Shown in pieces: positions 21,862 to 49,780 of a stretch of 64,000 nt of DNA (the first letter of the stretch is position 1; each line of letters opens with the position of its first letter). The DNA is from Antedon bifida (Eukaryota; Echinodermata; Crinoidea; Comatulida; Antedonidae). The position numbers were made by a program, and so were the translations under genes. Location: contig OY727095.1 in assembly GCA_963402885.1 (NCBI GenBank), forward strand, positions 12,715,001-12,779,000, in the 5' to 3' direction. The notes under the pieces were generated by a model. That model had not been told where the DNA came from, ran no database searches, and worked only from the letters and a program-made list of their open reading frames with translations.

Positions 21862-21913
21862 ATGTATGTTCTTCGAGTTTGTGCCATTTTTGTTGTCTTT
21901 ATTGCTGCAAAAG
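21862..21913 (+). CDS. Receptor exon 1: signal peptide
   Basis: ATG followed by a hydrophobic run ([17 protein letters not shown]). Donor gtaagc, phase 1. Leads into exon 2, where the likely cleavage is near VSAA. Confidence 0.85.
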
Positions 21914-24900
21914 GTAAGCTCCTTAAGATGTTTTTAATTTCAAACTCAATTCAATGTAAGTGACTTAACCTAAGGTCTGTAAAAAGGTAAAACTATTCAT
22001 TGTTTAGTTTTGTGTATAAGTCAGGTAAAATAATCAATTGGCCTTCTTATGGACGATTGTTCTTTTCTTTCCCCCCTTTTTTTGGTCTCAAACAATAGGC
22101 CTACGAACAACTACCGTAATACAATAATGCTAATAGACCTAAGTTTAACTTGCATCACAACCTGCACGTTAGCTTTAATCGACCAATCTCCTCTGCAGTT
22201 ATGCCCGGCCATCCGTTTCTTTAAAAAAATGAAAAATAAAATATGTTATCCCTGTGTTGTTGTATGAATATTTATTCGTTAACAATACCGATACTGCCAG
22301 GGTGTTATTCAAAATAACAGTTGTGTTATTAATTTAAACATGTTCAATTAATAAACAGGTACCCTACAATAAGGTGTAAATATATAGACCTCCTGAAATG
22401 AGTGATAACACGAACTGGCAATAGATTTCCCATGTTGTTCACTATAGCATCTCTACCACTACTAAATTATGTACCATTCAGTATAGTACCTACCAACTAC
22501 CGTCAACTGGTTGTTATGAATTAATTATCTTGTGATAAAAAGGTATTCTATATTCTGACAGTGCACCTCTGTAAAGTAGCCTACTCGTGTGTCCATCAAG
22601 AATGAAATACAGCTTCAAAATTATTAATAATAGGAACAAAAAAAAATGAAAACTTAAAATGAATAAATTCCATAACCTTTTAGATAATTATTTACAAACA
22701 AGGCCATATACTTGGCTGCAGTCGCGTGCTCAAATGTGAGTTAGTGTTTACCAACCGACCGACCGACATAGTGAGCTGTAAAAATGTGTCTATTTTCAAC
22801 AGGTTAAACAAAATGACTATATTATAATTGTTGACAACAGTGGCGTAACGCAGAGGCATGAGGCCCCTGGCTTAAGAACCCCAGTGGTCCTCCAACGTTG
22901 GGTAGGAGGCATATTTTAATTCCTGTTTTCCTCATGTCTGCATGGCTCAGGGGCCCCAATAAGATCCGGGGCCCCTGGGTTTAGCCAGTGAGCGCTCATA
23001 GCCGTTACGCAACTGGTCGACAATATTTATAATAAGGCATATGTGGCGTTTTCCTTTATTACATGCTCAACGTACTGATGGTGATCATTTTATTTCTATA
23101 AAATATAAGTACGCCATTAAGTATCGGTGATTTCAATATATACTTTTATAGACCTATACAAACGTATTGATTTGCGAGGAATGGAACATTCCAATCTCCC
23201 AGTATAGATATTTGGTATAACACAAGTAGTAAAATTTATGGGCCATTGGGGCATAAACTTATAAAACATTTTTGGTCGCCGTTTGAATCACAAATTTCTT
23301 ACTGTGAGTGTGAGTTAAATATATAAACACACATATACAAATAAACTTAATTATTACTGACCATTGCTTCTATACGTTTGTATTACTTAAAGATGTATTG
23401 TCCCCCTGAAAAATAATTTTTTTAAATTTTTTTTGTTGAATAGGCCTATGCCATGTTAATGTCACATAATAGTTATTGACTTCGACCAAAAATTGGATCG
23501 AAAAAAAAATTATTTACCTGAAAAAACTGGAATTTAAAGCAAAAAATGGTCAAATTGGCTGCCAGCCAATGGATTTTTGGTTGAATTTAACCATTTACCA
23601 TGTTATTTTATAAGTGAAAACATTTTTTTTTCTATGGAAGTGATTAACTTTATTAAAACTACAAAATAACCTATTCAAAGTCTGATTTAATTAATCTTAA
23701 TTTTTCATGTTTTTGGGGGACAATACATCTTTAATAATTACAAAAATAAAAACGTCGTAGTGGTATATTGTTACATGTACTTTACTATTTCCATCAAGTT
23801 CAACGTAAACATTTATTTTCATTTCTTTCCTAATTTGTATTAATTAACCTGTTTTGTTTGTATGTAGTAATGGTCGTGTCTGCCGCTGTAAATACTTCTC
23901 CGTCTCTTCCAACGATATCTACTTATGGTAAGAAAACTTGAATTAAACTCACCAATCTCGATGGTTATAATTTTTATAATTTTAAATTAGATTTCCATTC
24001 CTCCCATTGACCTGACTTACCTTATTATGTAGTCTGGGTTCTGAATCTGAGTTTGACTTCATATTAGTAAAAAAAAATGATGTAACGTTTGTTCATGGAG
24101 GAAATATATACTGTATATTTCCTCCATGGTTTGTTGGTGTCTTACGCATTAAACGTAGTAGATTCGTCAGTACATGTCCTCATGTTGAAAAATATTCATT
24201 ATTAAAGTACTAAACTACACTATCAAATATGTGACAATAAAATGTGATGTGGACATGATGATGTCATATCACTACCATATTTGGGTATACGTTTGTTGTT
24301 GTCTTTTATATTACACAAGTAGATTCGTCAGTACCGAAAGCACGGCGTGTGATGCGCAATGTAATAATTGGTTACGTTGTGTGTACGTCCTGTCTGTTGC
24401 GTCTAAATATAGATAGTGGGGACCAGGCTTAAGCTTGGTTCCCACTAGGACGCAACGCAAGGACGTAAGCGTGTTAACCAATGACAAGCGACAGTTCGAA
24501 TAATCCATCGCTTGCGATTGGTCAACTCACTTACGTTGCGTTACGTCCCCGTGTTGCGTCTCTAGTGGGAACCAAGCATTACTGAAGAGGAAGTCTCGTC
24601 ATCATTATTAATGATCTCCGTATAATTCAAACACTGCTAATAGTAATACATTAATTTAACAAAAAAAGTTTCATTTTTATCAAATACTGATGTCATTAAA
24701 GGTACCAATTGCGGCGACACACATACAGGAACGTATGGGGAAATATCGTCGCCTCTATATCCAGAAAACTATCCTGGAAATACTACATGCATTTGGAAAA
24801 TAACGGTAAAGTGTTTTTAAAGTTAAAATTCAGTTACAATAATGCTCAATGTTTGTACGCTTACGTCAAATAGTGCGACATGTCCTCATGTTGAAAAATA

Positions 24901-27900
24901 TTTATTATTAAGAAACGACAACTACTGAATATTTATTTTATTTTTAGGTTCCAGAAGAAAGTCGTGTTTCGGTTAAATTTCGTTCCTTTGATTTGTATTG
25001 TCCGCATGATTATCTTGAGATTTATTTAGATGGAACAGATGACGAAGTGCATGATGACCGGTAAGTAAGCCTGCTTATTCTAGAAAGGTTTCTAATCAGT
25101 CAATTAAATCATCGAATATAATACTCAAAAGCTACAAACTCAAGTTAAACTCTAAAGTGACCAGTAACTATTCCATACAAGGAAAAGAAGAAGGGAAAGA
25201 GAATAATTATAATGGTGGTGATAATGATGATGAATGATGATGAAGACGTTGATGAGGTTGACGATGATGAAGACATTGATGACGTTGACGATGTTGAAGA
25301 CGTTGATGACGTTGAAGACGCCGAAGACGTTGATGACGTTGAAGACGTTGATGACGTTGAAGACGCCGAAGACGTTGATGACGTTGACGATGTTTAAGAC
25401 GTTGAAAGCGTTGACGACGTTGAAGATATTGATGACGTAGATGACGTTGACGATGTTGGAGACGTTGATGAGGTTGACGATGTTGAAGACGATGATGACG
25501 TTGAAGACGTTGAAGATGCCGAAGACGTTGATGACGTTGACGATGTTGATGACGTTGACAGCGTGGAAGACGTTGATGATGTTGAAGGTGTTGATGATGT
25601 TGACGTTAAATTATATTTTTCAAACCAATCAATAAATTGCACAGAATGCGTGACAGTAGGTCTAAACACAGAAGAAATACATTTCCATGATTGATCAATA
25701 TTTCTGAATTATCCTGTATAAATATGTTTTAAATTTAAAAAAATAGATATCAATTATTATAACAAATTAAAAATATCACACACATTTATTTCATTGAATG
25801 AATCGCAATTTAAGTAAACTATATAATAAATAGTATGAAAACGCGTTTCGAACAATAGTGTTTTGACGACTGGATCAAATCCATGCGGAATTCCTGCGAT
25901 GGAACACATTTGTTTAATTTTGAATAATCTACTCGACCGCGACAAAAAGAACGGCAGTAGTTGTTTTGCTTAAAAGTTAATGGATCGTTTTAGGAGAAAG
26001 AATTACACGTTTAATTAGTAAGTAAAAACAATGGTTTTAGTCGAACTGTAATAAAATACTGTAGCATAATAAAGTTCCTTATTAAATGAAAGTAATTACA
26101 GTAAGAAGCTACCGTAAGCTTATAGGAGATTGGGCATTTGGAAAAGAACCATGTTCTTCTATACGGGTAACACGGCGGTCCTATAATAATAACAACTAGA
26201 ATTTAATTCGTCACTTTGACGAATTATAGGTGATCATTTTTATCATTTTAATGAAATTAAAACTTTTTAAACATGCACGTACGTTAACATACGATCGTAA
26301 AAAGTTGATGTATGCCATCCTATGATATGATGCATACGCTTATAGTGCTGAGTTGTGCATGCCATATACAATATGTACAGTATATACTGTATATCTATAT
26401 ACAGTGTAGCATAGGTGAAATTACGGGACACACATCATGTTCTAATTTTTTGGTATGATGGAATTATCAAAATAAACTCAAAGATGACAATTTCGAAAGA
26501 TAATGAATTGAGCAAATAAATATAAGAATTGCAAGAGAATTTGGCATGTAGAAGCGCTGTGCGCGCTGTTTGAAATTTGTATAACTTTGACCAAAAAGAT
26601 GAAAAAACTACTTTTTAACTTCATCTGGCCATATGTTAACGTCACAACATCCGATAGGCTTGGTTTTTATATGAATTCATATCTAAATTTCATCAGCTTT
26701 CATAATAAATTATAATCATCAAGGTAACCTTCAATTCTGAAGAGCTGTAAGATATTCAAATTTACGGCAAAGGTGAAATTACACGACCTATGTTATTCAA
26801 GTTTTTACGCGTGATGACGTCATCAAAATGAAAACACTGACAACTTATGATATTAAAGATAAATAATTAAGCAAGCACACACTGAAATTTGTGCGAAATC
26901 GAGCTATTGAATGTGATAACCTACACAAAACGGAAAAAATCCTAATTTTTAAATTCAAGTGGCCATTTGATGACGTAATACCATTTTGTACGTCTAATGT
27001 GTATATACATTTATATCTACAACTCAATGGCTTCCCGAATAAGTTAAAAAACTTAGGGGTCATCGTGCATTCTGAAGAGTTATTTTCATTTTAAAAATGC
27101 CTTATTTTTCATCATTTTCAGCACAATTAATGTGCGCATTTTGTCATTTTTAACATGCTCGTATAGCGTTATTTTACGTCGGAACGGACTCAAATTTAGT
27201 GAATGTACTAAGGATGGTGAGTAGAATGCGATTTCTACAAAAAATTCGTATTTTTACGCTTTTTAAGAATTGCGCGCGCAAAAACGCATTTTTGCGCAGT
27301 AATTTTTTGAAACACGCAAATAGCCTAATTCATGCTCTAAATTGATCAAAACTTAATTTTGAGCTTTTAAAATTTTTTACGCGCGATTTCACGCGTATGA
27401 CCCTACGTGCGCGTGCCTTTTATTGGTTAATATATTTACCTTTTACCTGAAGTTTACGTATTGTGAATTTTATTGATATGTGATATCTATTGAGTTATGG
27501 CGATATGATTGATAATGTGATTTAACAAAATGGCGTATAAATGACGTCACGGTTGAGTGATCACGCTGAAAAGCTTATTAGGATTAAGTTACAGTATTTG
27601 AAATATATTGTGAACATTTTGTCATCTTCAACATTCAACTTTTTGAGATAATTGTTACACAAAATCTGTACAGAGAGAAATAAAGAATAAAGATTTCATA
27701 CAATAACAATAGGTGATCATTTTATTCTAAATGATCACCTAACTAGAAAGCCACTGTAAGAAGCTACCGTAAGCTTATAGGAGATTGGGCATTCGGAAAA
27801 GAACCATGTTCTTCTATACGGGTAACACGGCGGTCCTATAATAATAACAACTAGAAAGCCACTGTGTGTGTCTTCAATACAAACAGACATGTGTATGTGA

Positions 27901-30900
27901 ATTTGGTGTAATGGTTACGTTACGTAATCAGCCTTTCAACTAACAATAGTTTCAGTTGACTAACAATAGAACAGCAACGCTAAAAACAAACGGGTGAATT
28001 TGAAAAGAAATAAGTTTTTTAAAACTACTCGTATAAAAACACCTGTAAATCAAATAAAATTATGTTTTACAATTACAAATCACAAATTGTAACTCTTGCC
28101 TCTTGTACAAAAATGAAGTTTTTTGGACAAGTAGTTCTCGAGGAAATGCAATATCAGTTTATCGGCTTTTGAAAATTCTGTCCTATCTTTTAACACTAGC
28201 AGGTCTGAAAATTATACTAAAAAGTGGTCCAGAATTGGGACCGTGGTCCGGATTGCCTCCAAAATTGACCACATATCTATCTGTATTTTCATTTTGGTAA
28301 AGATCTTCTAATTACTTTTTGAGTATTCCTGCCAACAAACAAACAGACAAACAAACACACGCGATCGACTACATATACCTCCTTGGCGGAGGTAAACAAA
28401 CAAACAAACAAACACACGCGATCGACTACATACCTCCTTGGCGAAGTAAACAAATAAACAAACACACGCGATCGACTACATATACCTCCTTGGCGAAGTA
28501 AACAAATAAACAAACACACGCGATCGACTACATATACCTCCTTGGCGGAGGTAAACAAACGGTTCACCAAACAAACAACCTAGAATGGATCTTATACGTC
28601 CATGCCTAGACTTCTATTTCTGAAAGCAGTTAGGCCTGTTATTTAGACAAATCCAAATAAAAATTCGTCATTTTAATCATTATAATTACGTAACATGTCG
28701 ATGTTGATAAATAAGAAGTGATTCTTGCAGTTTATTATTGTAGAACATGTCGGCGTAGAAAGGAGTCGATTGACCTTTTTGATCAAGTTCAAATGTGTAA
28801 TTTGAGTACTCATTTATGATTAGTGAAGATTTATTATACCTTGAACTCAACATATTGAATCAATGTCATTATTGGCTGGTATGATTAATTACAGTAAAGA
28901 CGATGGTATCATAAAATGAATCCTTAATCGCAGCACGTGGCAATAGACGGCCTAGTTGAAGTTATAGGTCCATGGTTGAAGATACTTACATCTCCTGGTC
29001 TATTTATAATTTAGTAATTTATAATCATGTAAACTAATAAATAATAATGTTAATTGATGAAGGTTAGCCTTGAATTAATCTGTTGATTGTAATATTAATT
29101 GTATTGTATTTATTTTATTTCCATAACAATTCTTGTAATTGATGCTGCTGACTTGATTTGAAATAGACTGGTGCAAATTATTCGCACCAATAAATCAAAC
29201 ATTTGGAAACAAATAGGAGAGGTGGGGTTGCTGAATAAGATCGCATATGAATTACTTGACCCCATTGTTTATTAACAAATAAAACTTACTAAGTTACGTT
29301 TCAAGTTTTGATGACTGATGTCAATCAATCAATAATACAAGTACTATAACTATTATATACGGTTTACCGTAAATCTTCTAATTGTAACCCTGGGTTATTA
29401 TTCTTTGATTGTTTTTTAAGGTGGGTTACTATTAGAAGGGGGTTACTATTAGAGTAGTGGGTTACTATTACTAATCTTAAATTAGGCACCTGAAAATACT
29501 AGTAACCCACCCACAACTTTTCCGGTCAGCAACTCATAGCAAAATAATAAAACAGTACAAATAAACACATTTGATTGAACTCTAACTTTATTTTATAAAC
29601 TCAAAAACACTCACTCCTCCTCCACTCCCGAGATCAACATGCAATATCTCCTTATATATATTATTTTCAAAATACGGCTGCATTAGAGTAGATTATTATT
29701 GACTTATAAGGTGGGTTACTATTAGAAGGGGGGTTACTATTAGAGTTTGGGTTACTATTAGAAGATTTACGGTATCGCAAATAGCGAATGATTTGGGAGA
29801 AAACGTCACGACGCGTACGTACGTGATTTGTTGTTTGTACGTACGCGTAGTGACGTTTGCTCCCCTTATTATGTGTGTGTACAATTTCTTATGTTATAAA
29901 AGGGCCTTGAAAAAACAGAAGATCCTTGCCATTTTAATACTATATTATAAATATATGACTAAATAAACGTGAATGTAATAAAACATAAAAGAACAGAAAC
30001 AAAAAAACAGAACTAAATAAATGATAAAACAAAACATGCCGAGATGTATATACTGTAATTACTCATCACGTGGCACAAATATATCTAATACTGTACATCT
30101 AATTTAAAATAGTTTGATTCTAAATTAATTTCGTTTTTAAATCTACAGACTATGCGGCAGTAATTATTATACATTGCTATCGGAAGCCAATTCTATTTTT
30201 TTAATGTTCGTGTCGGATTCAAATTTATCCGGAAAAGGATTCCATCTCATATGGAGAGCAGTGGGTAAGTTATTTTTGTATAATTATACCATTAATTATT
30301 ACTCCATGATTATACTTACCTCTTTTTTCAATTTTTTAATCTACGCCTTGGGTTTAATAAGCGCACGTTACATTAATTAAATGTACTGCATTATGTATTT
30401 TAATGCATATCATATAACCAATTAATCGCATCTTCAGAGAGCCATAATTCCTTTCAATTCAAATTTGTATTTTATTGGGAATTAATTATACGCGTACGCA
30501 CATTTTGCATTGTGATGTGCGCATTATTACAATGTTTATTCTTTTTTTTTCATTTATTTATTATTTCTGTCTATGTCTATATGTTGTTTCCCTCTCAAAT
30601 GTAAGTAAATTAACTTCGTACATCCAACCTGTTATAGTATAGTAATAATGTAAAGGTTATAGTATTTCACAATATTTTGCATTTTTTATTTTCTTTGATT
30701 TCATATATTACCTATTCGCGTTTCTTATTTTCAATTTACCAATAAGAGTTGGTATCTCGTGGTAAGCCTACGAAACAAAGCAGTGTACTTGTAGTGGCAG
30801 GGGATCCTAGAGGCTCAGACCTGGCTGTAGACGGCGACCCAAATCCATTCTTCAACTCTGGTTCGTGTACGCACACATGTACGTAATTGCTATCTTGTTT

Positions 30901-39900: not shown

Positions 39901-42900
39901 CAAAGATACCGTAATTCAGTTTATGCATTTATATAATTATGTATGCCATGTGATTTCTGCAGTTTCAGATGTTTTTAATCTGTCAATATTTTAACCATGC
40001 ACTGGTGCATATTATGTCTATGTTTGTGGTCATGACAATAACGAAGTATCTTAGGTAATTATCTCTTACAACTAAGACAATGGTTATAATTGTAAGTTTG
40101 AATAGAAATGAATTAGCAACAAATATAGACATGAATGAAAAGAATGAAATCTACTACCTTCTTGACAGATATGTATCTCAATGTAACGACAACAGTGGAG
40201 CAAGTTGAGAAGTCGTTCAAAGGTAAGAATTTCTAAATTTGATGTAAAACGTTTTTTTTCTAGATTTTATGACTAAACCATTTGTTTCTCGAAAGATGTA
40301 AGTACATGTTAAAAGAAGTATTTATTTATTTTGATTTAATGCAACGATTTCCAATATCCAATATAGAAATTGGCATGAAATATTATTCATATAAGATATT
40401 TGCGGGGGACTATATTTGAACTTATTGTTATTTGAACAATTGCTGTTGACTCAAGTAAAAGATTAATTGTCGATCTCTAACTTCTGGAGGTCATTTGCAG
40501 CAATTAAACTAGAATACATTTTAAAAGAAATATTTGTTTATTTTGATTTAAAGGCAACGATTTCCAATATCCAATATAGAAATGGGCATGAAATATTATT
40601 CATATAAGATATTTGCCGGGGGACTATATTTGAACTTACATCAATTGCTGTTGACTCAAGTAAAAGAATAATTATCGATCTATAACTTCTGGAGGTCATT
40701 TGCAGCAATTAAACTATAATACATTTTAAAAGAAATATTTGTTTATTTTGATTTAAAGGCAACGATTTCCAATATCCAATATAGAAGTTTGCATGAAATA
40801 TTATTCATATAAGATATTTGCCGTGTATTATATTTGAACTTACATCAATTGCTGTTGACTCAAGTAAAAGATTAATTATCGATCTCTAACTTCTGGAGGT
40901 CATTTGCAATTAAACTAATGTAACTATTCGCTGATAACACAAATTAAACTAAGATTTATTAAGACGTTTCAAGAATATATTTTTGATTTACAAAATCAAA
41001 TTGATCATTTCAAACAAAGATTTGGAATGCATTAGGAGATTAATGAAAACAAACGTCTGTCAACTGTTTTATAATTTATTTATTTGTTTGTTCTTAATCT
41101 GTAGCTCTTTACTTTATATTCTACATTACAACGCTGATTTAAGCCTGTTTTTCACTAGGCGAATTTATTTATGCATCAAATTGTTTTATGCATCGAATTT
41201 TCCGAGGTCTTGGTTGTGCGTTATTTAGCGTCACAAAGGGGAAACTTCGCGCGAAGACCAACCAAAAATTAATGATTAAAACTAAACACTAATGTTTTTG
41301 GCTTTTTAAATGGCAAAGAGAATGGGAGACCAAATAAAAGGAGAACTGTTTCCAAAAACTAAATTTCAGTTTTATTTTCGTTTTTGTAAAGGGTGTTACA
41401 GGGAAGACTATCAATGTGATAACCAAGAATGCATTCATCAACTATTCGTTTGCGATGGAAAAACAGACTGTCGAGATGGAAGCGACGAATTCAATTGTGA
41501 AAGTAATATAATATCAATAGTAGAAATATTTATGCAATTATTACATTATATTTTTCATTGCTTTTATGGAATGGGTTGCTAACTTAATTAACAAAAACTC
41601 AAATGACTGTATGTTTATCTAGGCCAATAGTAAGAAATAGACGAATGCAAATGTATGCTAATTGGGAGAAATCACCTGGTATTTATAAATACAATGTTGC
41701 AGGGAAATATAACATTGTAGTTTCAAATGCTGATCGAACTTTTTGTTTTACTCTTAAAGCCAATTTGTTCCTATAGGACGTAACACAATAACGTACTACA
41801 CGCCAATTAGAAACAAAGGACTATCTGAATTTTGCTTGCGATTGGTTAAATTGAGCGTACGTCGTCGCATTGCGTCCTAGTGGGAACCACACTATCACTT
41901 TGTATTGTGACTTCTTTTCCAGACGAATGTGAATATGGGGACTTCCAGTGTAAAGACAAACAATGCATACCTGTATCATTTGTTTGCGACTTCATCACAC
42001 AATGTACTGATATGTCTGATGAAATCGAATGTCGTACGTATACTGCATTATAACAAATTAAATAATGGTTTACTAAAATAAAAAAAAAAAAAAATTGAGT
42101 CTACTCTACCTTCAAAAGATTTAAATTTGTGTATGATCTTTTCCTACTTGGACGTACGTAAGCACGCCATAATCATCTCAACTGTTGCTTTTGATTAGTC
42201 TTGTGTCGCGCCTACGTCACGTCAAATTGAGAACCAATATTAACTAATAAATTATTTGATCATAAGTTTAATTATCGTATATCAACCTTAGTGTTTAGTA
42301 CTGTACGGTACACTAAAAGTAACAATATACAATTTGCCAATTCAAGATCCGATCAATACTAAACAAAGCATTTTCATAACGCATGAGAACAATTATAATT
42401 AACTTCATAAAATAGTAGTAATTCATAGAAAACCTTCATTAGTAAATAGAGTAAGTATTGATCTAACCATGTGTTGCTAATGTAATATTTTAAATTGTCT
42501 TAATATGTAGACTTAATGAGACTCCCATTAATAATTTACTTACACCATTTTAACGTTTTGTTTTTCAAGATTATCCAAACTGCACATCAGAGGAGTTCAC
42601 ATGTGATAATGGTCAATGTGTAGATTCTAATCAACGATGTGATTTATTAATACAGTGTACAGACGGATCCGATGAAAAGGATTGTGGTGAGAATGGCCCT
42701 ACATCAAATGACAATTAAAACCGAAATTAACATTGAATTGTATTAGTTGATCAATTTTATTTATTTGTAAATGTTTGTTTGTATATACGCATTTTGTTTT
42801 TTGGGAGCAAACGTCACAACGCGTACGTACGTACATGATTGTTGTTTGTACGTACGCGTCGTGACGCTTGCCAAACCCTTCCCATCATGCATTGTGCAAT

Positions 42901-45900
42901 AAAGTTCCTCGCGAAATCAAGCTAAGGAGGAACCGCCACTGAGCTCAGTAAATCTGGATTGAATTGATCACGCAGTCACACACATAGGTGACGAACCGGA
43001 TTGCATATGGGGTAGAATGTTTATTTAAAACAATATACGTTATGTAATATAATGACGTGTTTTGTTCGTGCTTACGTCACAATAGGTGCACACTTCTCTT
43101 TTAGATTTCTGTTCCTCTGGATTTCAGTGCTATGATGGATCCTGTTTACCATTACGAGCCGTATGTGACGCCACCAACGACTGTCCTGGTGACACAGTGG
43201 AGGACGAAATGATTTGCGGTATGTATTCAACATTCAATTATTTCCTTCTCTACTTATATTATCGTAACAATTTATATTATTTATAGTAAAATAAAATTAG
43301 AATATCGTTTTAAATTGAAATGTATATATATTCTTTCAAAATGTCTACAAACCAACATTTTCTTTCCATAGATTATTGGATAAACGCCACATGTCCAGCT
43401 GATACAATGGCCTGCAAGAACAAGGAATGTTCACCAAAACGGTTCAGATGCCTTTATGACTTGGATGAATACCATATTCAGAAAGGATGCCGGGATATGT
43501 CACACCTTGAACGATGTGGTAAGTTTTAAACGTCTCAATGCCAAAGGCCCGGCCTACAACGATCATCTAGGCCTGACCAAGTTTACTAAAGCTAAATGGA
43601 CGTAAATTGGACAATTCTAATTAATAATTGTTTAGTATATCTTATCAATATTTTATTTCAGATGATTATAATTGCCTGGAAGACACCTTTAAATGTCCAT
43701 CGTCGTACTGTATTGCAGAGAGATTACGTTGCAATGCAATATGGGATTGCCCAAATGGAGAAGATGAAAGAGAGTGTGGTAATTGTTTTCTTATAAATTT
43801 CTCTATTTAGTCCATGTTTCGTCATCGTTAGTTAGTCATCATTTCTGATAACTAGTAATGTCGAAATACTTAATCCTGACGTGAATATGTTCGTGATGTT
43901 TGTGTTTTATGTTTGGTAATGTTTGTGTTTTATGTTTGGTGTGTTTTGTGAGAGTCCCTTGATTGTCAGCGCATGCGGTTTTGGGTTACCCTCATTAAAA
44001 ATGTTGAAAAGACCTGTATTACATAAAAAAATTCCTCTTCTCGAATCTTTTTTTACAGATTCATACGTCTGTCCAAATTCGTATAAATGTAGAAACAGTA
44101 TAATTTGCATAGCACATAACGACAGGTGTAATGGAGTTAAGAATTGTCCAGAAGGGGATGACGAAATAGTTTGTGGTAAGTAATTAGCAATTTTTGTGTT
44201 TGATGTTGAGTCATGAAGATGTACTGTATTGTTTTCAAAATCGGTTTATAAGGAATAAAAAGGGAATGAAAATAAATATAATTGTTGATGATAATGGTGA
44301 CAAATTGGCGCTCTTTTTCAGACGACGTTTGCCCCGCACCTGAATGTTCTTGCAGAGGGCTTGAGGTCACATGTCATGGGATTGCGTGGAATCAAACCTT
44401 AGCATCAATTATTCTACCATCAGCAAGATATTTGTAAGTTTAGTTTTCTTTTAAAGTTTTCCGTGTTATTTGAATTCAAGTTCAAGTTCAAATTTCAAGT
44501 TCAAATTTATTCACATAATGCAAACATATACAAAAATATAATAGATACAAATGGTTGGAAATTAAGTAAATAATAGTTGCATTATGCCTGGAGAATACCA
44601 TTTAAACCCCAAGGGGCTTTAAGCCTGGATCCACCAGAAAGAATAAAAAAGTTAAAAATAATAATAATAAGCATAAGGTGAGGGTTAGCTACTGACAGAC
44701 AGGGACGGACATGTACGACGATACAAACACGACAAGGACGACAGGAAGGACAAACTGAATTTATATGATTTGCCTAATTAAATTTAATAATAAGTTATTA
44801 ATATGATCAAAATAATTAATTTACTTTATATTTTGATATTAGATAAGATTTGTAGTTTATTTTTAGAGTATTATTTGTTTTGCTATTTATAGTTATTGAC
44901 GGATTAAGAGAGTTCCAGAGTAGGGGTCCGGTATGTAGTATAGAGTTTAGTATTTTGCTTACTGTTATAGTTTTTGGAAATGTAGTTGTTTGCGTTCCTA
45001 GTGTTATATGTGTGTAGTTCGTTATTTTTAGTGAAGAAACCGTTGAAAGTGGTTGGAAGTTTGTTATTTGAGTACCTATACATGAAGAGGGCAGTTTGCA
45101 ATTTATTAATGTCAAAGATGTTTAGGGTATTTAGGGTGTGAAAAAGAGGTTTAGAGTGAGAGAGGTAGTTTGAGAGAGTGCAAATGCGAAGGGCCTTTTT
45201 TTGGAGTTTGAATAGTTTGTCTATTTTGGTTGTTTCCGTGCTGGTCCATGGACAGAGAGTTCGATGTTTTGAGTCAGTGGCTGCCCATGCAATGTTGCAG
45301 TAAGAGAGATGTGGAAGTATTAGAGTATTATATAAAGAAAAAAGGATGTTAGACGGAAGAGTAAATTTAAGTTTTTTTAGTATGCCAATAGTTCTTGAAA
45401 TTTTGTTTGAAATGTTATTAATATGGAGATTCCAGTTCAGTTTATTATCAATAATCACACCAAGAAAATGGGTGTGGTCGACTGGTTTGATGGGTATATT
45501 ATAGATATTTGTATTTGTAGCCTTATTATTGTTTTTATTTCCGGAAAAAGTGAATGTAATTTGTTTTGCTGATGTTTAGTGAAAGCTTGTTGATTTTAAA
45601 CCAGTTTGAAACGTTTCGGATTTCTCGGTTGAAAGTTTGGATTAAAGTGTTAGGATCTGGGCCGGAGAGAAAGATATTCGTGTCATCTTATTAACTTCTA
45701 TAAAAAGAGTTCTTATAAATGACAACACGTTTATAATCAGGGCAGTATATTGCCGTTGAAATGGGTAATCTCAAAGATGATGGGGCACTGAAGTCTCAGT
45801 AAAACAGAACTTAGGCGGGAAATGGAATCTATTGGCTGTTGATGTCAATTTGGCAAGCAATATACAACAGAATAGACAGCGCTCTTATGGTCATTAAAAC

Positions 45901-48900
45901 GTTACATTACATACACAGGTCCAAAGGTTAAATAAATGTGTTTTTTTCTACAGAAACCTAACAAATCTTAGAAGGAACTCTGTAAACAGAAGGTCAACTA
46001 GAGGTGTAACTCTCAAAGATTCTTTACTTCTTGACATTGATCAATTTTCTTTACTTATAGCAGCGTAAGTTCATAATGTACATCATTTCATTTTGATAAA
46101 TTGATATGTATTCATTATGAGTAAATCAAAGAGGTTCCGATCAATGAAATTGCGAATGATGTGAGTGTTTTGTGTATTTTTCTTATATACATCGATAAAA
46201 ACTGAGATGAGATTTACACACTATTATTAGATATTACCTCTACGAAAAAGTGGAATTTACTTTACAAACAATGTATACCGGTAATCCATATTTGGTAACA
46301 TAAGAATCCATTTCGTAGATTTCTTTCATATTTTCATTCAATCTTTATTTGGACAATTCATCCTTAAACAAATTCTGTTCTGTTCTAATGAAAACTATTC
46401 TAGTTATTTTATTCTGTATTCAAACTTTGTTTTGTTGTAGTGATTTTTCAAGTAATGGAATAGAAGAGATTTTACCAAACACATTTGGTCAGCAAGTAAA
46501 TTTGCAGATATTGTGAGTAATAATAACCACTTTCTAAATAACTTAGGCCTAACTTTTAATAAAATGCATATTTACATGTGAAACAATTTTATTATTTATA
46601 GGGTACTGTCAAATAACGAGATAAAACATTTGGAAAAAGGGGCATTTAATGGTTTGAGAAATCTTCAATTTCTGTAAGTGAATTTTATCTCGAATCTTTA
46701 CATAGTAATACAATTTTGAGTTAATCAATGCGATGGTTGTTTACAAAATAGTTATTTTCCGCACATACACCATATATCATCACAACATGAGCCGGTTTAT
46801 TTACTTTGTTTTAAATTACTCATTTCTATAATTTTAGGTACATAGACTATAACGGTTTAATATCAGTAGATTCTGGAGTGTTTTCAGTTCTAAGTGCACT
46901 GCAAAACCTGTAAGTAATGTGAATTAAAATCGTATAAACATCTTTATTTACCAATTATTCGTCAAAAATATAAATTAAGCTAAGACTAATTTGAGGCGTA
47001 GAGTGAATGTGGAGTAGTTTAAAAGATGAGATCATTCCATGATGCATAATAGCTTTCATTTCATTAAACTTTATGTTTGAGTACATTTGTAAAAGATTTT
47101 CATCTAAAAATTAGGCCTAACGTTTACAAAAATATAAATATGGTTTTGAATTATTTACGGTTTTACAGATATTTACAAGAAAACATGTTAACTGAATTCC
47201 AAGAAGATGTATTTGATGGTTTACATGAACTAAAATCATTGTAAGTTTTGATCCATTTTTATTATAACCTTTTTAAAACCGATATTTTTTTGCACAACCA
47301 ATGCTCAAACCACACCTACATCTGCAGAAATTCCTTTTTTTTAGATAACGCATTTCACAAATGTATTGTTTCTTTTAGGTCAACAGATGATTTCCTTTTC
47401 TGTTGTATGATAAATGACATTGTTGGTGACATTGAACATTGTCACCCTCCTGCGGATCAATTCTCCTCTTGTGAGGATCTTATGAAAAATGTATTCTTAC
47501 GAGTACTGATGTGGATTCTTGGAGTGAGCGCGCTATTAGGCAATGTCATCGTCATTGTATGGCGCTTGTATTCGAAGGACTATCGCAATGTTCAGTCAAT
47601 ACTTATTACAAATCTTGCCGCTTCGGATTTCTTAATGGGTCTTTACATGATAATTATCGCTGGGGCTGATTTATATTATAGAGGGCGTTACGCTCGAGTT
47701 GCAGAAGATTGGAAATCGAGTTTTCTGTGCAATTTTGCCGGAGCTATATCGACTTTATCTAGTGAATTTTCAGTGTTTATATTAGTTGTTATGAGTCTGG
47801 ATCGTGCGGTATCTGTCGGATTTCCATTTAGCACCGCTCGACTAAATCGTAAAAAGTGTCTTATTATGCTCGCAATAGCTTGGTTGACTATGATTGTTAT
47901 CAGTTTTCTACCAATGTTTAACATCCCGTATTTTGGAGAAAGTTATTATGGACGACCTAGCGTATGTCTTGCCTTGCCACTTACAGGAGATCGTCTCGAT
48001 GGTTGGGAATATTCAGTCGCTATTTTTCTGGGATTCAATCTCTTAGGATTTGTTATTATCGCTATCAGTTATACATACATCTATGTTGTTGTTAAACAAG
48101 CTGGAGCCTCCGTAAATAAAAGTCAGTCGAAAACTAAAGAGTTAAAAATGGCAACGAAAATGGCAATAATCGTTTTTACTGATTTCTGCTGCTGGTTCCC
48201 AATTATTTTGATGGGAATAGTTTCTCAGGCTGGAGCTTGGCAGATTCCTGTAGACATTTATGTGTGGTCGGCGACATTGATCATGCCAATAAACTCATCC
48301 CTGAACCCGTATCTTTACACAATTCCCTATATCAAGGATGCAAGGAAGAGGAAGAAGTTATCAAAAAAAGGAACATGTGCGTCCATTATGATGAGTGAAA
48401 CACAAAGTGAGTAACATCTCAGTTGATGTGTTTGCTTTTTAAACCGTGGTTCCTACTTGTGATTATTCAATATACGCTGCGTTGCGAACGCAACGCAAGG
48501 ACGTATGCGCAACGTAAGTAACTTGACCAAACACAATCACAAGCGCTATTACCATTGGTAAATTCGGTTGCGTTGCGCTTACGTCCTTGCGTCGCGTCGC
48601 TAGTGAGAACCACGCTTTAGGTAACACATTGATATTGTAGAATTGGGATAGTAGGACACTGCAGTTTGTTTATTGCTTTTTTTTATTTCTAAATTTTCTG
48701 AGTGAATTTAGCCATGTACTGCAGTAACTTATAGTATATAGTTGTCCTTCAACGTTGTAAAGTTTTAACATATTCATTTTTTACTAATGTAACAAAAATA
48801 TGTCTTATTTTAGAAGCCGAAGTAACATTACTTGACAAAGTTAAGCAAGATCTTGAAAGAAACCGTGTTCTACCTTTGCTCAGCATAGCAACCTCTCGCC

Positions 48901-49780
48901 CGTACCTCCTATCTTCAATATTAGCTACTCACACAAAGAAAGTTACCGAAAACCTTACGTCAGGACCACTGTTTACAAATGAAGAAATTACTCAGATTGA
49001 AACTGATTTAACGAAGGCTTTGCAGTTCCTTCATCGTAGCAAGCTCACTCATGGTACAATCTCAGAAGAACACGTGATCATTCAAACAGACAAGGTATAA
49101 ACGTTTATTGCCATACTCTAATAAAAACAACTATAGGCCCTAGAAATGTGTCTCCTTAAGGTCCATTTACACTAGGACGATAACGATCGACGATAAATAG
49201 ATAAACACAAATTTTTCTTACATAAAACAAAATAAATTGGAAAAGTTTTCGTTTTAGAAATATAGGAAAATCACTTATGCTGTCATTGATAAAAATAATT
49301 TTTTTATTCAAATGACGTCATGATCAATAAAAACAATAACGTCGTTGTATTACCACGCTATTATTGCTCTTACTGATTATGACGTCATTTGATTAGACAT
49401 GTGAAAATGTAATTGCCATCAAAGGCAGCATAGATGGTTCTCCTATATTTCTAGGATGAAAATTGTTTAGATTTCCTTTGTTTTATGTATGAAAAATGCA
49501 TATTTATCTATTCATCGTCGATCGTTATCGTCCAAGTGTAAATGGGCCTTTAGACTATGTAATCGTAGCTACTAGTACTTAAACTTGCTGCTCTTTTAAG
49601 ATAAAACATTGTATTCATCATTAATATACCCTTTTTTTTATGTAATAGGCACACAAACGGGCTTTTCTCATTGTTGCCTCAACAGCAACTACCAATACTA
49701 CAGAGGGCGTCTCACCTGAACAAGATTTTGAACAACTTAACAATCTTTTAGACAAATTAAGACGCTCTAAAATAAACTAA
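21862..49780 (+). CDS. Chimeric lectin-CUB-LDLa-LRR seven-transmembrane receptor (GRL101-like), 34 exons
   Basis: Predicted cell-surface G-protein-coupled receptor of 1708 residues. I chained 34 exons by splice sites and phase; the total of 5127 nt stays in one frame to TAA 49778-49780. Approximate residues: signal peptide 1-26; CUB1 38-148; F-type lectin 149-294; Cys-rich linker 295-330; LDLa1-4 331-474; CUB2 475-611; C-type lectin 612-762; linker 763-780; LDLa5-11 781-1058; LRR N-cap 1059-1095; LRRs 1096-1240; 7TM about 1268-1545; kinase-like tail 1572-1708. The 7TM region has [11 protein letters not shown], the LYYRGRY loop typical of relaxin-receptor LGRs, CCWFP and NPYLY. The closest described relative by layout is the snail receptor GRL101 (LDLa plus LRR plus 7TM); the added CUB and lectin modules are unusual. 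The ligand is unknown. The start is the ATG opening a classic signal peptide ([20 protein letters not shown]). Confidence 0.9.
22838..23015. mobile_element. hAT-type MITE, CAGTGGCGTAACG family, copy 2
   Basis: 178 bp in receptor intron 1. Ends CAGTGGCGTAACG and CGTTACGCAACTG. Flanked by GTTGACAA (22830-22837) and GTCGACAA (23016-23023), a target duplication with one substitution. Confidence 0.93.
23391..23730. mobile_element. TTAA-flanked palindromic MITE, copy 1
   Basis: The element starts AGATGTATTGTCCCCCTGAA and ends GGGGGACAATACATCT, bordered on both sides by TTAA, the target of piggyBac-type elements. 340 bp in receptor intron 1. Others lie at 38978-39208 and 55063-55652. Confidence 0.88.
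23868..23927 (+). CDS. Receptor exon 2: end of signal peptide, linker
   Basis: Acceptor gtatgtag, donor gtaaga. Encodes [19 protein letters not shown]. 60 nt, phases 1-1. Confidence 0.8.
24094..24128. repeat. 35-bp inverted repeat with CATGGAGGAAATATA arms
   Basis: A near-perfect palindrome, the same arms as 10449-10505 with a shorter loop. Confidence 0.8.
24208..24290. mobile_element. Fragment of AAGCTCTGTC-family MITE
   Basis: Shares ACACTATCAAATATGTGACA and CATATCACTACCATATTTGG with copies 1 and 2. The right end is missing. Confidence 0.65.
24340..24428. mobile_element. Half copy of GGTTCCCACTAGG-family MITE
   Basis: Right half only (ACGTCCTGTCTGTTGCGTC, then AGTGGGGACCAGGCTT), directly before a full copy at 24433-24577. 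Confidence 0.6.
24433..24577. mobile_element. GGTTCCCACTAGG-family MITE, reference copy
   Basis: 145-bp palindromic element: GCTTGGTTCCCACTAGGACG at the left, CTAGTGGGAACCAAGC at the right. The central mirror GCGACAGTTCGAATAATCC / CATCGCTTGCGATTGGTCAA is shared by many copies in this window. Confidence 0.88.
24702..24805 (+). CDS. Receptor exon 3: CUB1, first part
   Basis: Acceptor ttaaag, donor gtaaag. Starts [20 protein letters not shown] and runs to CIWKI, the opening of a CUB domain. Confidence 0.92.
24948..25060 (+). CDS. Receptor exon 4: CUB1, middle
   Basis: Acceptor tttttag, donor gtaagt. [20 protein letters not shown] is the CUB core, with the D-Y-L-E-I-Y motif. Confidence 0.93.
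25226..25607. repeat. GACGTTGAT minisatellite (9/18-bp period)
   Basis: Tandem units of GATGACGTTGAAGACGTT type with period 9 or 18, all multiples of three, so several frames stay open and read Asp/Val/Glu-rich on +. It lies in receptor intron 4 without splice sites that would add it to the receptor, so treated as non-coding. Confidence 0.88.
26101..26200 (+). repeat. 100-bp direct repeat, left copy
   Basis: From GTAAGAAGCTACCGTAAGCT to AACAACTAGA. Matches 27756-27855 with one mismatch seen (CATTTGG vs CATTCGG). The two copies bracket the 1.55-kb transposon. Confidence 0.93.
26195..27742. mobile_element. 1.55-kb non-autonomous transposon, copy 1
   Basis: Begins near ACTAGAATTTAATTCGTCAC with a hairpin (AATTCGTCA / TGACGAATT), then TAGGTGATCATTTT. 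Ends with TAGGTGATCATTTTATTCTA and the inverted AAATGATCACCTA, so the right end is itself a hairpin. Near-identical to 56732-58289. No transposase-like open frame. The terminal TAGGTGATCATTT/AAATGATCACCTA may be the inverted repeat; superfamily not settled. Confidence 0.88.
27756..27855 (+). repeat. 100-bp direct repeat, right copy
   Basis: Right partner of 26101-26200. Followed by AAGCCACTGTGTG, while AAGCCACT also precedes it, which shows a tandem duplication of about 108 bp that the transposon later split. Confidence 0.93.
28334..28560. repeat. ~50-57-bp minisatellite
   Basis: Four tandem units, each with CACACGCGATCGACTACATA, ACCTCCTTGGCG and AAACAAA spacers. In receptor intron 4. Confidence 0.9.
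29365..29774. mobile_element. MITE with TACCGTAAATCTTCTAAT ends
   Basis: Left TACCGTAAATCTTCTAAT and right ATTAGAAGATTTACGGTA are exact inverted termini. Internal repeats of GGTGGGTTACTATTAGAAGG near both ends. 410 bp in receptor intron 4. Confidence 0.88.
29795..29864. repeat. 70-bp palindrome rich in CGTACG
   Basis: GGGAGAAAACGTCACGACGC pairs with GCGTAGTGACGTTTGCTCCC around a TGATTTGTTGTTTG loop. A close relative is at 42803-42866. Confidence 0.85.
30149..30264 (+). CDS. Receptor exon 5: CUB1, end
   Basis: Acceptor ctacag, donor gtaagt. [20 protein letters not shown] and [15 protein letters not shown] close the CUB domain. Separated from exon 4 by a 5.1-kb repeat-filled intron. Confidence 0.92.
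30747..30878 (+). CDS. Receptor exon 6: F-type lectin, first part
   Basis: Acceptor aataag (chosen by phase; the next AG would hit a stop), donor gtacgt. [28 protein letters not shown] match the fucolectin N-terminal half. Confidence 0.88.
30904..31035. mobile_element. GGTTCCCACTAGG-family MITE, diverged copy
   Basis: GCTTAGTTCACACTAGG at the left, GAGGGAACCAAAC at the right. Receptor intron 6. Confidence 0.7.
31564..31650 (+). CDS. Receptor exon 7: F-type lectin, middle
   Basis: Acceptor aaacag, donor gtatta. [20 protein letters not shown] and DIVNRES; PWW-VDL is the family hallmark. Confidence 0.92.
31838..32123. mobile_element. Foldback element with TGTTTCCGCAG ends
   Basis: Starts TGTTTCCGCAGCC and ends GTCTGCGGAAACA, with repeated ATCGGTTAATTTTT motifs in both arms. 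286 bp in receptor intron 7. Confidence 0.8.
32423..32641 (+). CDS. Receptor exon 8: F-type lectin, end
   Basis: Acceptor ttttag, donor gtaagt. [11 protein letters not shown] opens the exon and [11 protein letters not shown] closes the domain, as in eel fucolectin (LTLCEVEV). The Arg-X-Asp is present (RVD), but the second sugar-binding Arg spacing is not the usual one, so fucose binding is uncertain. Confidence 0.92.
32683..32815. mobile_element. GGTTCCCACTAGG-family MITE, partial
   Basis: Retains GCGACAGTTCTGATGATCC and the GTCCCTGTGTTGCGTAC right half; the outer ends are eroded. Confidence 0.6.
32911..33018 (+). CDS. Receptor exon 9: Cys-rich linker
   Basis: Acceptor ttcttag, donor gtaagt. 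Contains [20 protein letters not shown] with four Cys in all; no domain recognised. Phases 1-1. Confidence 0.82.
33080..33281 (+). mobile_element. tRNA-derived SINE
   Basis: A box TAGCTTGATGG at about 33094 and B box GGGGTTCTATCC at about 33137 form a Pol III promoter in a tRNA-like head. The body contains CCTGTAATTGGCGAGTTGATG and ends in a 12-A run at 33281. Receptor intron 9, sense orientation. Confidence 0.85.
33532..33639 (+). CDS. Receptor exon 10: LDLa1
   Basis: Acceptor cgatag, donor gtaatt. Six Cys and a D-N-C-G-D-A-S-D-E calcium-site motif. Confidence 0.92.
34228..34367. mobile_element. GGTTCCCACTAGG-family MITE, full copy
   Basis: GCTTGGTTCCCACTAGGAC at the left, GTCCTAGTGAGAACAAAGC at the right, with the central ATTCGAACAATCGCG core. 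Receptor intron 10. Confidence 0.85.
34990..35160 (-). mobile_element. Possible retroelement 3' end, minus
   Basis: TTTATTTATTTTATTTACGA followed by GGGTGGTCCATCC resembles the reversed A-rich tail and 3' UTR of a LINE or SINE. No coding part; weakly supported. Confidence 0.35.
35203..35311. mobile_element. Possible hAT-like MITE fragment
   Basis: Right end ATGGATCCGCCACTG is a typical reversed CAGTGGCGGATCC terminus; the left end CAAGTGGCGAGCGGTCC is a weak match. Confidence 0.4.
35740..35862 (+). CDS. Receptor exon 11: LDLa2
   Basis: Acceptor atcgtag, donor gtaagt. Six Cys; [15 protein letters not shown] carries the calcium site. Confidence 0.92.
35889..36067. mobile_element. hAT-type MITE, CAGTGGCGTAACG family, copy 3
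   Basis: 179 bp in receptor intron 11. CAGTGGCGTAAACG at the left, TTTACACTG at the right. Flanked by ATTTCTAG (35881-35888) and ATTTCAAG (36068-36075), target duplication with one change. Confidence 0.9.
36406..36516 (+). CDS. Receptor exon 12: LDLa3
   Basis: Acceptor ttatag, donor gtaaca. [20 protein letters not shown] and [11 protein letters not shown]; a complete module. Confidence 0.93.
37098..37187 (+). CDS. Receptor exon 13: LDLa4, shortened
   Basis: Acceptor gatttag, donor gtaagc. [17 protein letters not shown] keeps the calcium-site half, but the module is about seven residues short and has four Cys instead of six (the second and third are missing). Confidence 0.88.
37748..38158 (+). 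CDS. Receptor exon 14: CUB2 (single exon)
   Basis: Acceptor tttacag, donor gtaact. A whole CUB domain in one exon: [36 protein letters not shown] and [16 protein letters not shown]. Unlike CUB1, which is split over three exons. Confidence 0.93.
38356..38562 (+). CDS. Receptor exon 15: C-type lectin, first part
   Basis: Acceptor cattag, donor gtaagc. [32 protein letters not shown] and EVYIG are C-type lectin landmarks. Confidence 0.92.
38600..38755. mobile_element. Possible MITE ending in GGAAACCAGGCT
   Basis: GTTTAGACTAGTTGCAGAC at the left and TATGTGGAAACCAGGCT at the right resemble the end style of neighbouring AAGC-ended elements. Termini only partly complementary. Confidence 0.4.
38830..38923 (+). 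CDS. Receptor exon 16: C-type lectin, middle
   Basis: Acceptor ttttcag, donor gtaata. [14 protein letters not shown] is the loop region. Ends phase 2. Confidence 0.9.
38978..39208. mobile_element. TTAA-flanked MITE, copy 2, opposite orientation
   Basis: TTAA then AGATGT at the left and GGGGGACAATACATCT then TTTAA at the right. Internal TTGGCTGGCAGCCAATTTGA shared with the other copies. Receptor intron 16. Confidence 0.8.
39352..39503 (+). CDS. Receptor exon 17: C-type lectin, end
   Basis: Acceptor atttag, donor gtaatc. [16 protein letters not shown], then QQWNEVAC and YICKYQL. QPK stands where EPN/QPD sits and WNE where WND sits, so the calcium/sugar site is not canonical. Confidence 0.9.
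39547..39726. mobile_element. MITE, AAGCTCTGTC family, copy 3
   Basis: AAGCTCTGTCTACACAC at the left, GTGTAGACAGAGCTT at the right, reverse orientation relative to copy 1. Three CCAAATATGGTAGTGATATG subrepeats inside. Receptor intron 17. Confidence 0.85.
40169..40222 (+). CDS. Receptor exon 18: short linker
   Basis: Acceptor tgacag, donor gtaaga. 54 nt, phases 1-1, [18 protein letters not shown] with one N-glycosylation motif. Included because it keeps frame and has good sites; this is the least certain exon. Confidence 0.65.
40305..40915 (+). repeat. Three tandem copies of a ~205-213-bp unit
   Basis: The landmark ACGATTTCCAATATCCAATA occurs at 40344, 40557 and 40762, and TAACTTCTGGAGGTCATTTG once per unit. 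It lies in receptor intron 18, between the linker exon and LDLa5. No open frame. Confidence 0.92.
41392..41502 (+). CDS. Receptor exon 19: LDLa5
   Basis: Acceptor gtaaag (earlier AGs give a stop in frame), donor gtaata. [20 protein letters not shown] and [10 protein letters not shown]. Confidence 0.9.
41759..41890. mobile_element. GGTTCCCACTAGG-family MITE, diverged copy
   Basis: TTTGTTCCTATAGGACGTAAC at the left, GTCCTAGTGGGAACCAC at the right. Receptor intron 19. Confidence 0.75.
41923..42033 (+). CDS. Receptor exon 20: LDLa6
   Basis: Acceptor ttccag, donor gtacgt. [20 protein letters not shown] and [10 protein letters not shown]. Confidence 0.92.
42150..42232. mobile_element. GGTTCCCACTAGG-family MITE, fragment
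   Basis: GGACGTACGTAAGCACG and GTCAAATTGAGAACCAA remain; the left end is gone. Confidence 0.5.
42570..42686 (+). CDS. Receptor exon 21: LDLa7
   Basis: Acceptor ttcaag, donor gtgaga. [18 protein letters not shown] and [10 protein letters not shown]. Confidence 0.92.
42803..42866. repeat. Palindrome rich in CGTACG, second copy
   Basis: GGGAGCAAACGTCACAACGC pairs with GCGTCGTGACGCTTGCC. Same family as 29795-29864. Receptor intron 21. Confidence 0.8.
43105..43218 (+). CDS. Receptor exon 22: LDLa8
   Basis: Acceptor ttttag, donor gtatgt. [20 protein letters not shown] and [13 protein letters not shown], with an expanded calcium-site loop. Confidence 0.9.
43372..43518 (+). CDS. Receptor exon 23: degenerate LDLa9
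   Basis: Acceptor tccatag, donor gtaagt. [15 protein letters not shown] begins like LDLa, but the second half ([10 protein letters not shown]) lacks the D-G-S-D-E calcium site. Confidence 0.85.
43662..43778 (+). CDS. Receptor exon 24: LDLa10
   Basis: Acceptor atttcag, donor gtaatt. [20 protein letters not shown] and [11 protein letters not shown]. Confidence 0.92.
44059..44175 (+). CDS. Receptor exon 25: LDLa11
   Basis: Acceptor tttacag, donor gtaagt. [20 protein letters not shown] and [11 protein letters not shown]. Confidence 0.92.
44322..44433 (+). CDS. Receptor exon 26: LRR N-terminal cap
   Basis: Acceptor tttcag, donor gtaagt. [17 protein letters not shown] is a Cys-flanked LRR cap. 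Ends phase 2, switching from the phase 1 LDLa exons to the phase 2 LRR exons. Confidence 0.9.
44476..45690 (-). mobile_element. 5'-truncated LINE (CR1/L2-like) with reverse-transcriptase C-terminal part
   Basis: On the minus strand, starting at 45688, [14 protein letters not shown] is the end of the RT YADD motif; then [50 protein letters not shown] and GPLLWNSLN follow, the usual order of CR1/L2/Rex-type RT C-termini. At least two frameshifts (near 45555 and near 44940) break it. The left end carries short TTGAACTTGAA-type tail repeats as at the 3' ends of this clade. Receptor intron 26, antisense to the gene. Confidence 0.9.
45954..46064 (+). CDS. Receptor exon 27: irregular LRR
   Basis: Acceptor ctacag, donor gtaagt. 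111 nt, phases 2-2, [20 protein letters not shown] and the following residues. Longer and more basic than a standard LRR. Confidence 0.85.
46441..46512 (+). CDS. Receptor exon 28: LRR
   Basis: Exactly 72 nt (24 residues, one LRR). Acceptor gttgtag, donor gtgagt. [20 protein letters not shown]. Confidence 0.93.
46602..46673 (+). CDS. Receptor exon 29: LRR
   Basis: 72 nt. Acceptor ttatag, donor gtaagt. [20 protein letters not shown]. Confidence 0.94.
46838..46909 (+). CDS. Receptor exon 30: LRR
   Basis: 72 nt. Acceptor ttttag, donor gtaagt. [20 protein letters not shown]. Confidence 0.94.
47169..47240 (+). CDS. Receptor exon 31: LRR
   Basis: 72 nt. Acceptor tttacag, donor gtaagt. [20 protein letters not shown]. 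Confidence 0.94.
47379..48406 (+). CDS. Receptor exon 32: hinge and all seven transmembrane helices
   Basis: Acceptor cttttag, donor gtgagt. One 1028-nt exon holds the Cys-rich hinge ([21 protein letters not shown]) and the full 7TM region: GNVIVI in TM1, [11 protein letters not shown] in TM2, [20 protein letters not shown] in TM3 (DRA in place of DRY), [10 protein letters not shown] in TM6, [12 protein letters not shown] in TM7. Reading through the donor would give a stop five codons later (SE then TAA), which could make a short-tailed form. Confidence 0.95.
48444..48617. mobile_element. GGTTCCCACTAGG-family MITE, large copy
   Basis: GTGGTTCCTACTTGTG at the left, GCTAGTGAGAACCACGC at the right; internal CGCAAGGACGTATGCG and TTACGTCCTTGCGTCGC arms. 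Receptor intron 32. Confidence 0.8.
48814..49094 (+). CDS. Receptor exon 33: cytoplasmic kinase-like tail
   Basis: Acceptor ttttag, donor gtataa, phases 1-0. Ends with [20 protein letters not shown] and HVIIQTDK, which lines up with the alphaE helix and catalytic loop of protein kinases (aLxyLHxxgixHrDlkpeNili) with HGT in place of HRD. Confidence 0.85.
49158..49550. mobile_element. Foldback element with AAGGTCCATTTACAC ends
   Basis: The left arm runs AAGGTCCATTTACACTAGGA through CGATAACGATCGACGAT. The right arm mirrors it (ATCGTCGATCGTTATCG, then GTGTAAATGGGCCTT). About 50-bp arms, 393 bp, in the last receptor intron. Confidence 0.88.
49649..49780 (+). CDS. Receptor exon 34: C-terminus
   Basis: Acceptor taatag; stop TAA at 49778-49780. 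[12 protein letters not shown], then an acidic stretch and [14 protein letters not shown]. 43 residues. Confidence 0.82.
   Translation, partial: AHKRAFLIVASTATTNTTEGVSPEQDFEQLNNLLDKLRRSKIN

Follow-up and report, generated by a model that had tools for sequence, protein, structure and literature searches.

A predicted GRL101-like receptor gene of Antedon bifida combines CUB, lectin, LDLa and LRR modules with a kinase-like tail

The locus and its gene model

The window analysed here, a stretch of 64,000 nucleotides (C8:12715001-12779000; GC 0.29-0.36 in 4-kb steps) from a genome of 315.6 Mb in 27 contigs, contains a chain of 31 plus-strand exons (21862-49780) that join in frame into a predicted protein of 1650 amino acids with no internal stops (Table 1). 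The AG acceptors and GT donors of the chain were checked by hand. Unguided gene-finder models missed weak exons and took in doubtful ones, and the model was rebuilt with the gene finder steered by domain hints; some splice sites were picked by hand, and the boundaries of exons 8, 12 and 16 are uncertain. A start codon at 21866 followed by a 16-nt micro-exon was discarded in favor of the ATG at 21862, which is preferred because it yields a signal peptide and a phase that fits the first CUB exon. The first-pass annotation had described one in-frame protein of 34 exons and 1708 residues; the single reading frame holds, and the rebuilt model differs from it in exon number and length. Its module order (CUB, F-type lectin, four LDLa, CUB, C-type lectin, seven LDLa, LRR, 7TM) is likewise retained, with the addition of the kinase-like tail exons, which it had omitted although they lie within the interval that it covered.

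Table 1. Exons of the predicted receptor gene, in window coordinates
Feature	Position	Strand	Basis
Exon 1: start codon and signal peptide (17 residues), phase-1 donor	21862..21913	+	Hydrophobic N-terminus; no match in C9 paralogue
Exons 2-3 (24702-24805, 24948-25060): CUB 1, first part	24702..25060	+	Pfam CUB; exon 2 matched in C9 paralogue, exon 3 equivalent by eye
Exon 4: end of CUB 1	30149..30264	+	Pfam, model
Exons 5-7 (30747-30878, 31564-31650, 32423-32641): F-type lectin	30747..32641	+	FBP32, eel lectin; Pfam F5_F8_type_C_2; His-X26-Arg...Arg kept
Exon 8: cysteine-rich module	32911..33018	+	Conserved in C9 paralogue
Exons 9-12 (33532-33639, 35740-35862, 36406-36516, 37098-37187): LDLa 1-4, fourth degenerate	33532..37187	+	Pfam, cysteine counts
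Exon 13: CUB 2	37748..38158	+	Pfam; genome matches
Exons 14-16 (38356-38562, 38830-38923, 39352-39503): C-type lectin	38356..39503	+	Pfam Lectin_C on part alone; DEC-205, PLA2R, mincle
Exons 17-23 (41392-41502, 41923-42033, 42570-42686, 43105-43218, 43372-43518, 43662-43778, 44059-44175): LDLa 5-11	41392..44175	+	Pfam; same-order matches in C9 and one C10 paralogue
Exon 24: LRR N-terminal cap (by eye)	44322..44433	+	Model
Exons 25-28 (46441-46512, 46602-46673, 46838-46909, 47169-47240): four LRRs, 72 nt each, phase 2-2	46441..47240	+	Pfam LRR_8
Exon 29: hinge and rhodopsin-type 7TM; LDR, CWFP and NPxxY-type motifs	47328..48406	+	RXFP1 match; 7tm_1; motif positions
Exon 30: C-terminal kinase-like tail, HGT in place of HRD of active kinases	48814..49094	+	Five-tail profile, VRK3 2.2e-4
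Exon 31: end of tail and stop codon	49649..49780	+	Kept in C9 paralogue

An F-spondin-like gene, recognized by Spondin_N and spondin-type TSP1 domains at 50574-51837, lies just downstream of the receptor gene on the opposite (minus) strand. A minus-strand open reading frame (44904-45575) in the intron that leads to the first LRR exon looks by eye like a retroelement remnant and has no Pfam match at E up to 0.01. Tandem repeats occur at 13409-13803 (38-bp units) and, within introns of the receptor gene, at 25226-25605 (27/45/63-bp) and 40303-40908 (205-bp).

Domain identities and receptor class

A Pfam search of the whole protein, a check proposed with the first-pass annotation, recovered all of the domain types named there except the C-type lectin: CUB (two stretches, 9e-48), LDLa (10 stretches, 1.4e-62), F5_F8_type_C_2 at the position of the F-type lectin (2e-13), LRR_8 (9.2e-19), and 7tm_1 (1.7e-31), each above its own cut-off. 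Lectin_C was missing from the whole-protein scans and appeared at 8.5e-14 when the C-type lectin part was scanned alone. Eleven LDLa modules were counted against the 10 Pfam stretches, the one in exon 12 being degenerate with four cysteines. NCBIfam gave no match, and the hydrophobic stretches over threshold were the first 21 residues and stretches of the 7TM region.

Both lectin folds have recognizable relatives. The F-type lectin, searched with a query that differs from the final model by two residues at the exon 6-7 junction, matched FBP32 (2.4e-46, two domains summed) and eel lectin (1.4e-18). The fucose-binding motif of this fold is H-X26-R-X-D-X4-R/K; the His and both Arg are present in the receptor, Ser replaces Asp, and the spacing is one residue shorter, the same replacement and shortened spacing as in the second domain of FBP32. 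Across the genome the F-type lectin exon has 61 matches, of which only those of the window, two on C9 and one on C10 accompany other receptor modules. The C-type lectin part matched DEC-205 (7.4e-26, multi-domain and summed) and mincle (1.1e-11, single-domain), with PLA2R also among its matches. C-type lectins that bind sugar in a calcium-dependent manner carry an EPN or QPD motif plus WND; neither was found in this part, which reads QPK and WNE at those positions.

The order of the inner modules points to the LGR family. LRRs stand N-terminal to a rhodopsin-family 7TM, as in LGRs generally; LDLa modules stand N-terminal to the LRRs, as in type C, and are multiple, as in GRL101 (type C2); and a C-type lectin precedes the LDLa-LRR-7TM part, as in the SudRes2 GRL101-like receptors, here with more modules further N-terminal. 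Among solved structures the LRR and 7TM part matched RXFP1 best (1.5e-74), followed by TSHR (9.4e-49) and LGR4 (1.9e-46), and in this sense, which is one of best match rather than of tree position, it is nearer to relaxin receptors than to type A or B, in line with the relaxin-receptor-like 7TM first reported for the locus. By this match, the predicted receptor is a type C and probably GRL101-like LGR. It has no Pfam match to a GPS or GAIN domain at E up to 1, which sets it apart from the Adhesion GPCRs.

A kinase-like tail present in part of the 7TM family

Exons 30 and 31 add a tail of about 137 residues after the 7TM. Taken alone, the window tail resembles kinases weakly (Pfam 0.053 for exon 30, PDB 0.17), and the tail of the C9 paralogue matches Pkinase at 0.003, below the curated cut-off. 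A profile built from five tails (window, C9, C12, and two from C10) matched 273 distinct PDB sequences at E up to 1. The best 60 of these 273 look like kinases or kinase fusions, and VRK3, which we take to be a pseudokinase, is the only one of those listed below 0.001 (2.2e-4); its loop aligned to the tail reads HGN. Active protein kinases carry the catalytic aspartate of HRD and an N-lobe with a Gly loop and Lys. At the HRD position the five tails read HGT (window), HGD, HGL, HGH, and HGH, so that His-Gly is common to all five and the aspartate is retained in just one; the listed kinase matches align only from about profile position 17, with no earlier kinase part found. The tail thus does not have the make-up of an active kinase, and we read it as a degenerate, pseudokinase-like kinase fragment, on the strength of profile matches and aligned motifs.

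Within 1.5-kb flanks, a tail match was found at 11 of 20 7TM loci, including the window's own, and was absent at nine; eight of the matches, on C10, are weak (E 0.0007-0.008). In a midpoint-rooted tree of these 20 paralogous loci (19 different rows), a single branch with support 100/100 divides tail-bearing from tail-less members. A further tail match adjoins C12:15605246.

The closest paralogue and the wider family

The C9 paralogue (C9:19555001-19585000, minus strand), whose 7TM is 82% identical to that of the window, aligns by tblastn, collinearly across 30 kb, with the window exons other than 1 and 3; an equivalent of exon 3 was spotted by eye. Exon lengths modulo 3 are identical in all 28 exons compared, an agreement qualified by the prediction of the paralogue model with hints from the window protein. 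Across ten domain groups (CUB 1 represented by exon 2 only), nonsynonymous differences range from 0.11 to 0.40 per site versus 0.69 to 0.89 for synonymous ones, a raw contrast used because synonymous sites are mostly saturated and dN/dS is mostly undefined. Purifying selection is evident in each of the ten groups. Between LDLa 4 and CUB 2, which are about 560 bases apart in the window gene, the C9 paralogue has three extra phase 1-1 exons. Two of them are SRCR (7.4e-22 and 1.9e-20); the third looked CUB-like by eye, an assignment without Pfam support that was not kept.

Ranking relatives by 7tm_1 score proved unproductive (the window's own 7TM was not among the matches listed, and of eight fetched loci the five in which the 7TM was readable looked aminergic by eye), and relatives were then searched for with the 7TM exon itself. 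This search gave 117 matches; 74 places reached 45% identity or more across 200 residues or more, and six of these contain in-frame stops. Outer modules vary among these relatives. In one C10 paralogue, the 7TM is preceded by matches, in the order of the window gene, to two of the three C-type lectin exons, all seven LDLa, the LRR cap, and two LRRs; a further 13.8 kb or so upstream yielded no match to either CUB or the F-type lectin at E up to 1. At C12:22085202 only the 7TM is found, the other domains of the window protein being unmatched in about 9 kb upstream.

SRCR matches lie upstream of family 7TMs, within 50 kb on the same strand, at no fewer than 13 of the 74 places, compared to two places with a same-strand match downstream and none with a match on the opposite strand. 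In 500 circular shifts, in which the sizes of several contigs were approximated, the upstream count had a mean of 0.43 and a maximum of 7. The observed count is a lower bound (150 of 409 candidates scored, with the two SRCR exons of the C9 paralogue outside those 150) and comprises seven places in one C12 cluster of close copies, four on C7, one on C9, and one on C15 (C12:23.33-23.92 Mb, C15:7.13-7.16 Mb, C7:29.3 and 32.66 Mb, C9:9.4 Mb). Such nearness suggests an association without proving one shared transcript, and the 13 places trace to few independent clusters. Of the 74 places, 5 have a CUB 2 match upstream, 6 a C-type lectin match, and 3 an F-type lectin match, the window and C9 copies included; the F-type lectin count, reached in 7 of the 500 shifts, is not strong alone. 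In the corresponding count with PF00059, for which 150 of 559 C-type lectin candidates were scored, no family place was among the matches listed. A partial 7TM on C10 at 16.385 Mb, not counted in the 74, has F-type lectin, CUB 2, and C-type lectin matches upstream of it (C10:16.41-16.43 Mb).

Comparison with known receptors

RXFP1 and RXFP2 (type C1) resemble the predicted receptor in having LDLa, and RXFP1 in being its best LRR and 7TM match; they differ in that RXFPs carry a single LDLa and are not known to have any lectin, CUB, or kinase-like domain. The GRL101 receptors of Lymnaea and ambulacrarians are closer in their many LDLa, their LRRs, and their LGR-type rhodopsin 7TM. Type C2 LGRs are described in the available text of two sources as carrying many LDLa repeats and LRRs (PMC8286064, PMC11863921), and to this ectodomain of LRRs and LDLa (PMC8286064) the predicted receptor adds two CUBs, two lectin folds, and the kinase-like tail.

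The first-pass annotation had held that no known receptor architecture matches, which is too strong. In Biomphalaria sudanica, GRL101-like genes that encode C-type lectin, LDLa, and LRR domains are clustered in a region associated with schistosome resistance, for which the causal gene is not known (PMC12297450). These SudRes2 receptors share with the predicted receptor the LRRs, the LDLa, an N-terminal C-type lectin, and the expanded cluster; in contrast, the accessible text describes no CUB, F-type lectin, SRCR, or kinase-like tail on them, and the words “CUB” and “kinase” have no occurrence in the main text (PMC12297450). Ectodomain modules of the pattern-recognition type, including C-type lectin, SRCR, CUB, and LDLa, are also found on amphioxus receptors, but those belong to the Adhesion family, many with GPS in the account available (PMC2246102).

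The tail finds its nearest parallel in choanoflagellate GPCR-kinase proteins, unlike which the predicted receptor is a rhodopsin-family LGR with a short kinase-like fragment that lacks the HRD aspartate. The choanoflagellate kinase domains sit on other 7TM families. What is shared, going by the part of the source available, is that one protein unites a 7TM with a kinase domain (PMC12716839). Lectin-bearing GRL101 is already known; in the literature searched, where subscription papers were thinly covered, we found no F-type lectin, paired CUBs, SRCR or SRCR exchange, or pseudokinase-like tail on a GRL101-like receptor.

A candidate recognition receptor on an LGR chassis

We propose, with a probability of about one half, that the locus is a single type C (GRL101-like) LGR gene whose ectodomain was enlarged by carbohydrate- or pattern-binding modules and which would sense microbial or non-self surfaces. 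Symmetrical phase 1-1 exons for such modules may have been inserted into an LGR ectodomain. The outer lectin and CUB modules, and SRCR in relatives, would capture glycans or the surfaces of microbes or other non-self material. This capture would be relayed to the 7TM by the LDLa-LRR-hinge part, whose counterpart in relaxin receptors has a role in activation, and the latter, which keeps motifs typical of G-protein coupling, would signal through G proteins, with the pseudokinase-like tail as a putative noncatalytic docking or regulatory site.

Consistent with this, the C9 paralogue has the same modules and phases, purifying selection and two SRCR exons, and the 74 7TM relatives, the SRCR association, the conserved tail, and the Biomphalaria cluster point the same way. 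A role in pattern recognition is plausible, with circumstantial support from the SRCR modules, the large expansion and the Biomphalaria association. Against it count the C-type lectin without the usual EPN/QPD and WND, the hormone receptors as nearest solved relatives by 7TM, and the dominance of purifying selection in all domain groups compared, which leaves arms-race evolution without support. In addition, the validated Biomphalaria variant sits, according to the text available, in a neighboring Zn-RING-IAP gene (PMC12297450). More tentatively, and at less than even odds, dozens of germline-encoded GPCRs of this one animal might share an ancient hormone-receptor chassis on which lectin, CUB, SRCR, and LDLa exons are shuffled for G-protein-signaling pattern recognition or allorecognition, one subclade having a degenerate kinase tail as a scaffold.

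The closeness of RXFP1 to the LRR and 7TM part and the seven-LDLa block matched in order in the C9 and C10 paralogues would also suit a relaxin- or insulin-like peptide receptor, in which the LRRs and LDLa bind a hormone and the CUB and lectin modules merely tune localization or clearance, and an IGF-receptor hypothesis exists for GRL101 (PMC8286064, as far as available). However, 74 relatives, some with other outer modules, are unexpected for one hormone, and the available text reports one GRL101 each in the ambulacrarians studied (PMC8286064), making this reading rather unlikely. The same architecture, together with an F-type lectin that has the fucose-binding His and Arg, could also belong to a cell-cell, gamete, or allorecognition receptor that recognizes self or partner glycoproteins through its lectin, CUB, and SRCR modules and signals via G proteins, an explanation that we hold to be improbable.

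Finally, it is highly improbable that two adjacent genes, one for a secreted CUB/lectin/LDLa protein and one for a separate LDLa-LRR-7TM receptor, were wrongly joined: although the model rests on genomic sequence, and in another C9 copy (C9:19467049-19515657) about 32 kb or more separates the C-type lectin matches from those to CUB 2 and the F-type lectin, a spacing that may reflect an insertion, rearrangement, or assembly effect, the exon chain with its AG and GT sites is unbroken, only one signal-like hydrophobic segment precedes the 7TM, and exon order, orientation, and phase are kept across the possible breaks in the C9 paralogue. A separate-gene origin of the CUB and lectin exons is hard to reconcile with this exon order and with purifying selection, and the comparison with the paralogue largely answers the worry.

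Under the proposed recognition reading, the locus would offer a testable case of related 7TM chassis with differing outer modules, and a further peculiarity is the conserved pseudokinase-like tail on a GPCR of the rhodopsin family. The expanded LGR family would also give context to the GRL101 cluster in the schistosome-resistance region of the snail. Innate recognition in invertebrates is usually ascribed to Toll-like, scavenger, and soluble lectin receptors; an LGR family in which lectin and SRCR exons are swapped would, if true, make GPCRs direct sensors of glycans or microbes.
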